NCBI GenBank assembly: GCA_011364925.1
Contig: RDOA01000032.1
Coordinates: 1 to 40,468 of the forward strand
DNA from: Promethearchaeota archaeon
GTDB taxonomy: Archaea > Asgardarchaeota > Lokiarchaeia > Sigyniarchaeales > SOKP01
Length of the DNA stretch: 40,468 nt
Direction: 5' to 3'
A model generated the notes under the pieces. That model saw only the letters and a list, made by a program, of their open reading frames with translations, searched no databases and had not been told where the DNA came from. Shown here piece after piece: positions 4,441 through 30,954 of the stretch. Within the stretch, counting starts at the first letter, position 1; each line of letters starts with the position of its first letter. The translations under genes were made by a program, and so were the position numbers.

Positions 4441-4622
4441 CTATAGAGATTACTATTAATACTTTCAAAATTCAAATTCAATTAAGCCTATAGGATATTA
4501 TTATTGTAACATAAAGGAATATAGGTAAGTTGACATTTTTTAAAGGGGATAAAAATAAATTTTGGTATTTTATTATGAATTTAAAAAGATCCGTTTAGTT
4601 AAACCATGTTTTTAATTTGAAA

Positions 4623-5897
4623 ATGCGTGAACTTAAAACTTTTTTTGCATATGAATTAGAGGACACAGGAGAACGCAGGGAGTTGGATTTTTCTGAGAGC
4701 GAGATAGAACAAAATCTTCATCCAGAACAAGTTCTGGTACTTGTTCGAGAAGATTTAAGGAGAATATTCATATGGAAAGGAGCTAAATCTCCCGTGAAAA
4801 GACGATTTATAAGTTCTAAAGTAGCACAGGAAATTCAGGTAGATCTAATGAAGGATTCTCGTTTCCATCAATGCAAAATTGTATCTGTTGATCAAGGAGA
4901 CGAGATTCAAGAATTTCTTGATGCATTTAATATGGAACCAATGAAAGTGAAAGAAAAATTACCCGATATGAGGTATATTCGTAACAGTGAAAAACCCCGT
5001 TTTAAAAAAACAAGAGTTTTTTCCGTTTTTCACGATAAATTCTTACAAGAATTCAATGATAGAACGCTTAATCGAAAAGCAGATGAATTTTGTGAAGAAC
5101 AAGAATTTAGAATAAGTGAACACCTCACTTTAAAATTAATAAACGGACACACAATTATACATATAGACAATGAACCATTCCGTCAATGCAAGTACCTACT
5201 TTTGAACCTCACTTCAAAAGATTTTGCCAAATTTGAACATATTGATTCGATTGATGAGGCTTTTGAGATTTATAACAGAATGGATAAAAAGCATGAAGAA
5301 GATCATGATTTAATTGATCCAGTATCTGAATTTGTTGGGCATTGTTCTAATCTTCAAGCGTGGTATGAAAATGATTACGATCTTAGAATTCTACATAGCA
5401 GTTTGTCCATTCCTTTACTGAAAAAACTTGCCTTTTTAGGGGATAAAATGGCTGCTATTCGGCTTAAAGAGAGCATTGCAACTAGAATTGCTTCTAAAAA
5501 TTACAATACAATCATTTTTTATCTAAACGAAAAATACTTAAAACTATTTTCAAACGAAGAGTTAGAAGGAATGTTTGAAGATTGGCTAGATCAGGACATT
5601 AAATTCACCTTGATGGAGAAAAGGAGATTATGGTATCCCCTGCTTAAAGAATTGATTGAAAGGGGAATATCTAAAGCGCAAAAAGTAATCAAAGATGAAA
5701 TTAAATATTATCTAAAAGAAGACAATTTTGATGCGTATCGGTATCTATTAAATAAAGATTTTTTTAAACATCTTACTATAGAAGATCTGGAAGAAATTTA
5801 TGAATTCGTTCCAAAGAAAGATAAAGTCGCTCTACAACGTATTGAATCGTCAATCCTTAAAGCCACTCTTAAAAAGAGAAGAAATTCAGAAGTTTAA
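4623..5897 (+). CDS. Gelsolin-like domain fused to a helical domain
   Basis: A 424-residue two-part protein. Residues about 36-102 read like a gelsolin repeat: VLVLVREDLRRIFIWKGA, then a basic helix with FISSKVAQEIQVDL, then CKIVSVDQGDEIQEFLDAF. Gelsolin repeats bind actin and calcium in eukaryotes, and Asgard archaea encode actin, profilin and gelsolin-like proteins. A second beta-rich part is at about 145-200. The remaining C-terminal half is helical and contains VGHCSNLQAWYENDYD and PLLKKLAFLGDKMAA. I recall similar text at the C termini of Lokiarchaeal LRR proteins. TTG 4617 is in frame; ATG 4623 is preferred. An actin-regulating role is inference. No actin gene is in the window. Confidence 0.6.
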   Translation: MRELKTFFAYELEDTGERRELDFSESEIEQNLHPEQVLVLVREDLRRIFIWKGAKSPVKRRFISSKVAQEIQVDLMKDSRFHQCKIVSVDQGDEIQEFLDAFNMEPMKVKEKLPDMRYIRNSEKPRFKKTRVFSVFHDKFLQEFNDRTLNRKADEFCEEQEFRISEHLTLKLINGHTIIHIDNEPFRQCKYLLLNLTSKDFAKFEHIDSIDEAFEIYNRMDKKHEEDHDLIDPVSEFVGHCSNLQAWYENDYDLRILHSSLSIPLLKKLAFLGDKMAAIRLKESIATRIASKNYNTIIFYLNEKYLKLFSNEELEGMFEDWLDQDIKFTLMEKRRLWYPLLKELIERGISKAQKVIKDEIKYYLKEDNFDAYRYLLNKDFFKHLTIEDLEEIYEFVPKKDKVALQRIESSILKATLKKRRNSEV

Positions 5898-28263: not shown

Positions 28264-29127
28264 TCATAATTTCTTCCACTCTCGATAAGATTGTATTAAT
28301 TTTATTACTTTTTCTCGTTCGATATTATCCTCAGCAAATCGCTTTTCTTCGCCTTCGATGGGATTCATCCCTAAAAATAGAACTTTAAGTTTTTCAAACT
28401 TTTCAAACTTTTCCAAGTTTTTTAAACTGGTTAACTTATTTGTATCCAGATAAAGAGTATCAAGGTTAATTAACGATTCCAGATTTTTTATTTCTTTAAT
28501 ATTGTTATTGTTGAGATATAACACTGTAAGTTTACTCAATGCATCCAAGTCTTTGATTTCCTCAATTTGGTTGTATGCAAGAAACAACCGCTCAAGGTTA
28601 GTTAAATTGCTCAAATTTTTGATTTCTGTTATTTGGTTGCGATTAAGGTCCAAGGTTACAAGATTAGAGAGGTTTTTTAAACCACGTATTTCTGTTATTT
28701 GATTTCCGGTAAGGGTTAGCTTTATAAGATTAGTTAACGAGTCTAATCCTTTAATTTCAGAAATCTTATTTTTATTAAGCTCTAGCCATTGAAGGTTGGT
28801 TAGGGAATCAAATCCTTTTAACTCACGAATCTGATTTCCATTAAGGAAGATACGATCGAGTTTAGTTAAATTATCAAGCCCTTCTATCACCTGGAACTCA
28901 TTATTACTAAGATGCAATTGCTTAAGGTTCGGTAGTTCCTCCAACCCTCTAAAATCTGTAATTTTATTGTTTGATAAATCTAAGGCTTCCACATTTTTTA
29001 ACTTATTAAGCCCTTTTAATTCTGAGATTTCTACTATATCCATATCGTTTACACTTAAGCGAATTAGGCCGAGTGCTTCTTTCACATTAAATTTTTTCCC
29101 TTTAACCTTTACTGATCCTAACCCCAT
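28264..29127 (-). CDS. SDS22-type leucine-rich repeat protein
   Basis: A 287-residue protein made of about ten 22-residue leucine-rich repeats of the SDS22 type (LxxLxxLxLxxNxIxxIxxL), for example NLQWLELNKNKISEIKGLDS and NLVTLDLNRNQITEIKNLSN. The first 45 residues are a cap and the last 40 a basic C-terminal cap (RKVxKLIQSYREWKK-like). The DNA shows the matching 66-bp period. LRR proteins of this form bind other proteins; SDS22 in eukaryotes scaffolds phosphatase PP1, and Asgard archaea carry many. It is divergent from the pseudo-GTPase gene and shares its upstream region, which contains an 18-bp palindrome. Confidence 0.9.
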   Translation of the reverse strand: MGLGSVKVKGKKFNVKEALGLIRLSVNDMDIVEISELKGLNKLKNVEALDLSNNKITDFRGLEELPNLKQLHLSNNEFQVIEGLDNLTKLDRIFLNGNQIRELKGFDSLTNLQWLELNKNKISEIKGLDSLTNLIKLTLTGNQITEIRGLKNLSNLVTLDLNRNQITEIKNLSNLTNLERLFLAYNQIEEIKDLDALSKLTVLYLNNNNIKEIKNLESLINLDTLYLDTNKLTSLKNLEKFEKFEKLKVLFLGMNPIEGEEKRFAEDNIEREKVIKLIQSYREWKKL

Positions 29128-29302
29128 TCTAATATTCCTACTATTGGTTAAAATTTTTTTGATTAGTATATTTGTACCCTAATTTAGTAATAAATCTTCT
29201 TTATTGGAAACTGAATCACTCTGATGTGATAACTTTTTTTAACATTTTTTTGCAAACATTTAAATAGTAAAATGTCCATATTTAAAATTGACGTTAGCAA
29301 TA

Positions 29303-29320
29303 ATTATTGACGTCAATAAT
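29303..29320. promoter_or_regulatory. 18-bp perfect palindrome, operator candidate
   Basis: ATTATTGACGTCAATAAT is its own reverse complement. It ends 10 nt before the GGAGG ribosome site of the pseudo-GTPase gene. A partial second site, TTGACG, lies at 28 288-29293 scale, that is 29288-29293, 20 nt upstream. TATA-like TTTAAATAG is near 29258. This is a typical shape for a dimeric regulator binding over a start region, and it could also control the divergent LRR gene. Confidence 0.45.
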
Positions 29321-29340
29321 AAATGAGATGGAGGATGAAA

Positions 29341-30189
29341 ATGAGTTCAAAATCCCATCCTTTTAAAGATAAGGAAATAAATGATTTAAAAACATATCTA
29401 CAGAAGATAGAAGTGCCTGTTGAGAACATTTCAAAAGATATTGATATTGAAGAACTCTCTTCTCAAATAAGTAAGAAATATGAAAAAACAATCAGTCCAG
29501 GGCAAGTTGAAGCAATTTTGCACCGAGTAATGGGAATTACTCTTACAGCTAAACAACGAACCCAATTATACGATTTACGGAAAAAAATTCAGAGATATGA
29601 AAAGTTCTTAGCTAATTTTAGAGAATGGGGAAAAAAGTATGATAATCAGCTAAAAATGATAATTCTTGGCTTAACAGAAGAGCAATCTGATTACCTCTCG
29701 CAGGTTTTAACTAAACCATTTATAGCTCCTGATAGGAATATAATAGGTGTTAATTTTATGACAAAATCAATTGAAAGTTTTGGCAAATTCTTGCCACAAC
29801 TTCAAATCTGGGATATCACCAATCAAGAGCGATTTGCGTTTATAAGACCTCAATTTTATAGAGGGGCTGCAGCAGCATTTCTGGTGTTTAATAAAGAAAG
29901 CCGCTCATCTTTTAATACGGTCAAGAATTATAGTAATGAAGTCAGGGAGGAAACAGGATTAAAATTTAAACTTAAAATCAAACATAAAACTCAGAAAGAG
30001 ATTTCTTTGCCTATAGGACTTATAGCTACTGGAAGAAACAATGTGATACCATATGAAGAAATCTTATCTCTCACCAAGGACATAGGAGCCAGCTACTATG
30101 AACTTGAAACTATAGAAGATGAACGTTTTCAGGAGATACTCATTGGTACAGCTATGGCAGTATTAGTAAGACTTCAAAATAGTTCCTAA
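29341..30189 (+). CDS. Degenerate Ras-like GTPase (pseudo-GTPase) with N-terminal helical domain
   Basis: A 282-residue protein. Residues 1-100 are helical (DLKTYLQKIEVPVENISKDI; LYDLRKKIQRYEKFLANFRE). From about 105 it reads as a Ras/Rab-type G domain: MIILGLTEEQSDYL where Walker A should be, RNIIGVNFMTKSI as switch I, LQIWDITNQERFAFIRPQFY as switch II, AAAFLVFNKESRSSF next. The P-loop lacks GK(S/T), DxxG is WDIT and the G4 motif NKxD is GRNN, so GTP binding and hydrolysis are doubtful. Start: ATG 29341 is six bases after GGAGG (29330-29334); earlier ATGs at 29323 and 29335 are less well placed. It converges with the longin-like gene 12 nt away. A protein-binding switch remnant is inference. 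Confidence 0.7.
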   Translation: MSSKSHPFKDKEINDLKTYLQKIEVPVENISKDIDIEELSSQISKKYEKTISPGQVEAILHRVMGITLTAKQRTQLYDLRKKIQRYEKFLANFREWGKKYDNQLKMIILGLTEEQSDYLSQVLTKPFIAPDRNIIGVNFMTKSIESFGKFLPQLQIWDITNQERFAFIRPQFYRGAAAAFLVFNKESRSSFNTVKNYSNEVREETGLKFKLKIKHKTQKEISLPIGLIATGRNNVIPYEEILSLTKDIGASYYELETIEDERFQEILIGTAMAVLVRLQNSS

Positions 30190-30201
30190 ATAATCTTTTT
30201 T

Positions 30202-30954
30202 TTAATTGTTCTCAAGTGTATTTAAATTTAGTTCAAAAAGTTTATCTTGAATTTTATTCTTTAACTCTTTAGCAAAATTGTTTGTAACTTCGTCTGGAAC
30301 ATAATTTAGGTACTCATTGATTTCATTTTGAATTATCTTGTCTAGCTCATCCATTAATTCTTCGGTTGTTTCGTGACTCCTTAAATAAAGATTCTTATAG
30401 GTATGAATATACCTTGTATTGAATTTTTTTAACCATTTTTTACCAACTTGCTCAAGCAGATTTAGAGTTGTTCTAGAACTAGGATCGTTAAAGTTCGCAA
30501 ACTCATATTCGTACTTAATTAGTCTCTCTTCGCAATATTTGACTACTTGGGCTTTTTGCTTTGAATTTAAATCTGTGTTGGCATTAAGAAATATGATAAC
30601 CATAAATTTTTCGAGTAAGAAATAGATTTGAACTTTAATATTTGAACCGTAAATTTCCAAGTTAGATAGGTTCTTAATGTTAGCTTGCCCTGCGAAGACT
30701 TTAAACGAGCTCAAATACATTGAGACAAGGTCAATCTCTAGAAAATTCTGTTGATCTTTCGACAGATAAGACTTTATTGACCCATATTTATCGTCTTCTA
30801 CTGAATCATACTCAAAGACCGTGATTGTGTTCCCATACTGATCTGCGATAATGATTCCAATAATCGGAGGGATCACATTAAAATTATTTGAGCGATAAGC
30901 GGTTTCGGTTAATCTTTGTTCAACGAAATCATCGCCTTTTCCCGCTTCAAGCAT
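30202..30954 (-). CDS. Longin-like domain protein
   Basis: A 250-residue protein. Residues about 31-155 have a longin/roadblock-like order: IIGIIIADQYGNTITVFEYD, then a helix DLVSMYLSSFKVFAGQ, then KVQIYFLLEKFMVIIFLNAN and helix QKAQVVKYCEERLIKYEYEF. Longins act with small GTPases in eukaryotic trafficking and occur in Asgard archaea. The C-terminal 90 residues are charged helices (ELMDELDKIIQNEINEYL). The gene ends 12 nt from the pseudo-GTPase and is on the opposite strand, so a functional link is only suggested by position. A hidden-Markov search would test the longin call. Confidence 0.5.
   Translation of the reverse strand: MLEAGKGDDFVEQRLTETAYRSNNFNVIPPIIGIIIADQYGNTITVFEYDSVEDDKYGSIKSYLSKDQQNFLEIDLVSMYLSSFKVFAGQANIKNLSNLEIYGSNIKVQIYFLLEKFMVIIFLNANTDLNSKQKAQVVKYCEERLIKYEYEFANFNDPSSRTTLNLLEQVGKKWLKKFNTRYIHTYKNLYLRSHETTEELMDELDKIIQNEINEYLNYVPDEVTNNFAKELKNKIQDKLFELNLNTLENN

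Follow-up and report, generated by a model that had tools for sequence, protein, structure and literature searches.

A predicted pseudoGTPase family of Asgard archaea, with relatives fused to a second Ras domain

Introduction

What can a Ras-like protein do once the residues that hold GTP are gone, and do the genes beside it say anything about its role? The locus that raises this question lies in a 40,468-nucleotide stretch of DNA from a Promethearchaeota archaeon (hereafter, the window), where a gene of this kind (P0002) stands between a gene for an LRR protein (P0001) and one for a roadblock-like protein (P0003). Asgard archaea encode eukaryote-like GTPases by the dozen, very little is known of what regulates them, and their partners can seldom be read from gene order (PMC10933270); the same paper describes Asgard GTPases fused to roadblock or longin domains and notes that the GTPase genes do not, as a rule, share operons with genes for either kind of protein. 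In eukaryotes, class-i pseudoGTPases are known and have a partner or adaptor kind of role (PMC5593906, PMC10211241), examples being p190RhoGAP pG1/pG2, CENP-M, and the fungal dynein LIC (Stiegler and Boggon 2017, PMC5593906).

Results

A Rab-like fold with eroded G1 and G4

All three ORFs are present at the coordinates and on the strands given by a first-pass annotation of the sequence (Table 1). The LRR and pseudo-GTPase genes are divergent and the pseudo-GTPase and roadblock-like genes convergent, and these orientations (-,+,-) rule out an operon.

Table 1. Features of the locus, in window coordinates
Feature	Position	Strand	Basis or comment
P0001, SDS22/internalin-type LRR protein, 287 aa	28264..29127	-	ORF, Pfam
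GGAGG, Shine-Dalgarno-like, 6 bases 5′ of the ATG at 29341	29330..29334	+	Sequence
P0002, pseudo-GTPase, 282 aa: N-terminal helical domain and Rab/Ras-like fold	29341..30189	+	ORF, Pfam, PDB sequences, AlphaFold, Foldseek
Helices 3-4 of the N-terminal domain, KTISPGQ...LTAKQRTQLYDLRKKIQRYEKFLANFREWG, residues 49-97; most conserved part	29485..29631	+	
P-loop (G1) position, eroded: GLTEEQSDYL, not GxxxxGK[ST]	29668..29697	+	Eroded in 18/18 aligned homologues
Switch II, partly retained: WDITNQERF versus WDTAGQERF; DxxG reads DITNQ	29809..29835	+	Alignment
NKxD (G4) position, eroded: IATGRNN	30022..30042	+	Missing in every aligned homologue covering the region
P0003, roadblock-like protein, 250 aa, long C-terminal helices	30202..30954	-	Model, Foldseek, orthologues

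P0002 is Ras-like (Pfam Ras, 4e-15), with a match that starts at profile position 15, past the P-loop; among PDB sequences it matches Rab4/Rab11-type proteins at 1e-13 to 1e-14, and a profile of the pseudo-GTPase family reaches Rab1/Sec4 at 1e-25. Its AlphaFold model (mean pLDDT 78) shows a G fold preceded by four helices, and Foldseek matches it to Rab structures with E-values of 1e-10 to 1e-11 and a probability of 1.00; these matches are confined to the GTPase part, the N-terminal domain not being matched separately. A Rab-like fold is thus shared with the Asgard Rab-like GTPases of PMC10933270. The first-pass annotation had described a Ras-like protein with no working P-loop and with a helical N terminus, and both descriptions hold: G1 is eroded, with NKxD gone as well, and the helical N terminus is conserved across the family.

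The genome from which the window comes has 53 Ras-like ORFs, five of which lack GxxxxGK[ST]. Among the five, the loop is still near-canonical in two and NKxD is retained in another two; P0002 additionally lacks NKxD. Given 53 Ras-like ORFs in the genome, this double motif loss is far from chance. P0002 has neither of the motifs, GxxxxGK[ST] and NKxD, that together mark a functional Rab/Ras GTPase, and we predict from its sequence that it does not bind GTP. With a small-GTPase fold, the loss of G1 and G4, and a maintained gene, it would fall among the class-i pseudoGTPases.

Elsewhere in the same genome (C108), two adjacent GTPase genes (L009 and L011) have the altered P-loops GDPNVGKE and GDASTEKT. 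The L011 product has a long C-terminal part that by eye resembles a 426-aa protein encoded in the window at 4617-5897, whose N terminus is gelsolin-like, again by eye only.

A maintained family lacking both motifs

Homologues of P0002 at E<1e-20, all single-GTPase proteins of one Asgard class, occur in 18 of 77 genomes, its own counted; with the N-terminal domain as query, matches extend to 21 of the 83 genomes of the class, and weaker ones to a few genomes of other classes. G1 is missing from all 18 rows of the alignment and G4 from all rows that cover it, and every inspected homologue, including one from another class, lacks both and has an open frame. The homologue from the other class (G137) is 35% identical over 251 residues, and its G1 reads GSSTEIRTK. 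Between species, the pseudo-GTPase dN/dS is about 0.25-0.30, indicating purifying selection, with lower values for the neighbours (0.08-0.13 for the roadblock-like gene and 0.07-0.18 for the LRR gene). Open frames and a dN/dS <1 in all comparisons rule out a pseudogene, and, judged by these alignments, the eroded P0002 is a member of a conserved Asgard family and no one-off decay. The gene has evolved more quickly than those beside it, its distribution across the class is patchy, and it is therefore not essential. Presence in two classes indicates that pseudoGTPases have a long history in Asgard archaea.

We consider it highly improbable that P0002 is an atypical working GTPase, or that it binds another nucleotide in an unusual pocket; switch II and the strand order are retained, but no homologue has the lysine-serine/threonine of G1 or the asparagine-lysine of G4. 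As in the class-i pseudoGTPases, the fold of P0002 appears to be kept by selection, and by analogy a scaffold role would be expected. Unlike p190RhoGAP, CENP-M, and dynein LIC, P0002 is archaeal and has its own N-terminal helical domain, and its loss of nucleotide binding is a prediction from sequence.

The LRR gene and the conserved gene order

P0001 consists of tandem 22-residue LRRs of the SDS22/internalin type (Pfam LRR_4, 2.4e-40), in agreement with the first-pass annotation, which had further proposed that the three genes form one functional module and had made this depend on their being neighbours in some relative. They are, in at least five: the complete trio lies on one contig in G002, G008, G009, G013, and G014; contig ends interrupt it in G003 and G017. 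However, in the same genomes the trio sits at the edge of a colinear block of >20 kb, from IPMS to a STAS-like gene, which makes adjacency the background expectation and thus weak evidence, and the trio was dropped as proof of function after this block was found.

The slot itself is variable, with single genes swapped into it. The LRR gene is missing from it in G021, G022, and G010, a GyrI-like gene has entered in G021, and in G004 a TPR gene takes the place of the LRR gene and most of the pseudo-GTPase gene; what remains of the latter are 43 C-terminal residues, up to 86% identical to G010, beside an intact roadblock-like gene. Within the genus, the pseudo-GTPase and LRR genes show no association (Fisher p 0.40). 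For the trio as a whole we found neither linkage beyond background synteny nor co-inheritance, and the proposed module is not borne out: its gene order is that of the surrounding block, the LRR gene is uncorrelated, and the roadblock-like gene persists in G004. The arrangement of the trio holds at genus level at most; the LRR gene is probably a chance neighbour of the pseudo-GTPase, and both flanking genes are tied to it only loosely.

A phylogenetic conflict is seen in G008, where the roadblock-like and LRR genes share 79% identity with their window counterparts and the pseudo-GTPase (L110:10237-11163) shares only 36%. The G008 pseudo-GTPase belongs with another lineage (the AU test speaks against the window-type grouping, p 7e-5), and the roadblock tree speaks against the reverse grouping (AU test p 0.006); the pseudo-GTPase has therefore been exchanged in place, with the flanking genes keeping the species phylogeny.

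The roadblock-like neighbour

Neither P0003 nor its family profile matches any Pfam family or PDB sequence, longins included. The model (pLDDT 79) has a helix at 4-22, strands at 31-38 and 43-48, a helix at 74-91, three strands, and a helix at 131-147, followed by long helices, and thus the α-ββ-α-βββ-α topology of Roadblock/LC7. Foldseek places it closest to MglB, LAMTOR, the Rag C-terminal domain, and MK-D1 Roadblock3 (9jue), with E-values of 4e-4 to 4e-3 and, for MglB and LAMTOR, a TMt of about 0.5-0.6. Because the Pfam roadblock profile does not match its sequence, we call P0003 roadblock-like and do not file it as a Roadblock/LC7 member. A longin would have no helix before strand 1 and two C-terminal helices, and PMC10933270 describes longins as being without the N-terminal helix found in roadblocks; helix 4-22, not decisive alone, precedes β1-β2 in P0003, and roadblock-like is for this reason the better name. 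The first-pass label "longin-like" thus gives way, a true longin identity being weakened by the model and the Foldseek matches, and we place P0003, from its predicted structure and with modest E-values, on the roadblock side of the roadblock/longin superfamily.

About two dozen P0003 orthologues occur across the family, and distant relatives of about 500 aa are Rag-like GTPases with a P0003-like C-terminal domain (checked in G031 and G028). In G028, two Rag-like GTPase genes lie 10 bases apart (L136:2767-5589), the second with such a domain. Two short P0003-like genes in tandem adjoin a metallo-beta-lactamase-like gene at L130, L131, L132, and L133, an arrangement kept in several genomes of the genus. 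In G041, a co-directional 174-aa gene (L123:10687-11211) lies 44 bases behind the pseudo-GTPase gene and is longin-like by eye; its 38% match is with the N-terminal end of a Lokiarchaeal ORF of 1126 aa in G020, no known longin matches it, and the longin reading is suggestive only.

MglB carries MglA, and Ragulator carries Rag. By its model, P0003 shares the roadblock fold of MglB, LAMTOR, and the Rag C-terminal domain, and one may ask whether P0002 and P0003 are a working pair, in which a roadblock dimer would carry a dead Rab-like subunit as a constitutive platform. We think this unlikely. The two genes are adjacent in 11 genomes, the window counted (2/11 at contig ends), and co-occur in the genus with a Fisher p of 0.004, uncorrected for kinship, completeness, or linkage; the predicted fold of P0003 and the fusion of its distant relatives to Rag-like GTPases also speak for a pair. 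Against it, the genes are convergent and their adjacency is expected from synteny, the roadblock-like gene is kept in G004 beside the pseudo-GTPase remnant, the two are unlinked in five genomes (G011, G015, G020, G079, and G087, far apart in the last two), no roadblock-like gene was found in G066, G090, or G137, and the G008 phylogenies conflict. Unlike MglA-MglB and Ragulator-Rag, the GTPase-like neighbour here is dead, sequence similarity between P0003 and MglB is below detection, and a complex is only conjectured.

The helical domain and its association with CDC48_N

Helices 3-4 of the N-terminal domain have a majority identity of 74-80%, versus a family mean of 61%, and the G domain is less conserved. 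The helical domain is a mobile Asgard domain that elsewhere is also joined to CDC48_N; in G125, from another class, it occurs together with CDC48_N and has no G domain. The CDC48 N-terminal domain is a substrate- and cofactor-binding barrel in Cdc48. Both of its parts, CDC48_N and CDC48_2, are matched in G079, G087, and G125, where, unlike in CDC48/VAT, they are joined to the helical domain (and to GTPase-like domains) and an AAA ATPase module is missing; the window's own P0002 lacks CDC48_N.

At the G125 locus (L192:37-3194), an ORF and a gene for an intact Ras-like GTPase run in the same direction as the gene for the CDC48_N/CDC48_2 protein, which bears the helical domain and C-terminal cysteine pairs. 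A roadblock-like reading of the ORF at L192:37-582 receives no support from the P0003 profile.

Fusion to a second Ras domain in three relatives

With the N-terminal domain as query, three genomes of genus g8 (G079, G087, and G090, the last at L172:4306-5877) yielded orthologue ORFs of 524-658 aa with the order helical domain, pseudo-GTPase, second Ras domain, Pfam Ras matching in two stretches of each. The pseudo-GTPase part is 37-39% identical to P0002. In the second domain, the motifs are intact in G090 (GDGRVGKTS/NKVD) and G087 (GDAEVGKTS/NKVD), and in G079 the P-loop is altered (GDTRAGTSS) and NKAD is present. The G079 and G087 fusions also have CDC48_N and CDC48_2 at the N terminus (CDC48_N at 8e-21 and 7e-10 in Pfam). 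A STAS-like gene lies beside all three fusions, as in the window's block, and those of G079 and G090 share five further flanking genes (MTase, g22044, g20906, GPN, and NTase); because of these common flanks we regard the fusions as orthologous to the window gene. G087 is a single 3.3-Mb contig, which argues against an assembly artefact, and in G079 and G090 an additional intact GTPase gene lies directly upstream of the fusion and co-directional with it. No stand-alone pseudo-GTPase member has the active half, and the fusion is accordingly a possible side branch and not the ancestral state. In the window's genome, six stand-alone GTPases (C56:15111, C23:12012, C48:78470, C48:85276, C65:5878, and C20:23476) are 57-64% identical to the fused second domain, the next best being 38%.

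That dead and live G domains are fused in three relatives suggests, as gene fusions do, that they act together, and offers a concrete, testable pairing. The first-pass view of the partners survives in part: P0002 does stand beside a gene of the roadblock/longin superfamily, and an active Ras-type GTPase has better support as its partner. We regard as doubtful a reading in which the neighbours have no functional link, being carried by slow rearrangement of the segment, and the role of the pseudo-GTPase has nothing to do with GTPase partners. The colinear block of >20 kb, the uncorrelated LRR gene, and the slot swaps in G004 and G021 agree with it, but the three fusions favour a GTPase-related role and are silent on the neighbours.

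A proposed role for P0002

To us the chances are about even that P0002 is a class-i pseudoGTPase adaptor that partners active Ras-type GTPases, in cis or in trans. A Rab-like fold minus the GTP-holding residues would not switch, and P0002 would probably be a fixed, nucleotide-independent binding partner of such GTPases, its conserved helical domain forming a second docking surface. In the fused relatives, an active GTPase and a CDC48 N-terminal domain in one chain may tether a live switch to cargo or a cofactor; in the window's species the pairing would be in trans, and the best candidates for the live partner are the six stand-alone GTPases. P0003, the roadblock-like neighbour, may have been recruited in this genus as a further platform. 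The adaptor role, the trans pairing, and any roadblock contact are what we infer from these comparisons.

A more specific version, which we hold to be improbable, is that the helical domain and pseudo-GTPase form an Asgard-specific regulator of a distinct GTPase subfamily, the 'KTIGAQF' paralogues, with dead and active GTPases paired in cis or trans and CDC48_N coupling switching to Cdc48-type cargo handling. If true, the 'KTIGAQF'/CDC48_N unit would control small GTPases in a way that eukaryotes do not show; the CDC48_N fusions themselves suggest that GTPases and the handling of Cdc48-type cargo are connected.

Unlike the eukaryotic class-i pseudoGTPases, P0002 has relatives fused directly to a GTPase and a CDC48_N domain. 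A literature search for pseudoGTPase together with Asgard, incomplete in its coverage, found nothing, and the main text of PMC10933270 does not use the term pseudo-GTPase and, in the sections available, mentions no P-loop-less family, CDC48_N, or GTPase-GTPase fusion. Within that coverage, the archaeal pseudoGTPase family, its helical domain, and its fusions with a live GTPase and CDC48_N are new.

Among the six 'KTIGAQF' GTPases of the window's genome, three (at L183, L184, and L185) adjoin large proteins with winged helix and TPR domains, perhaps another GTPase-linked unit.
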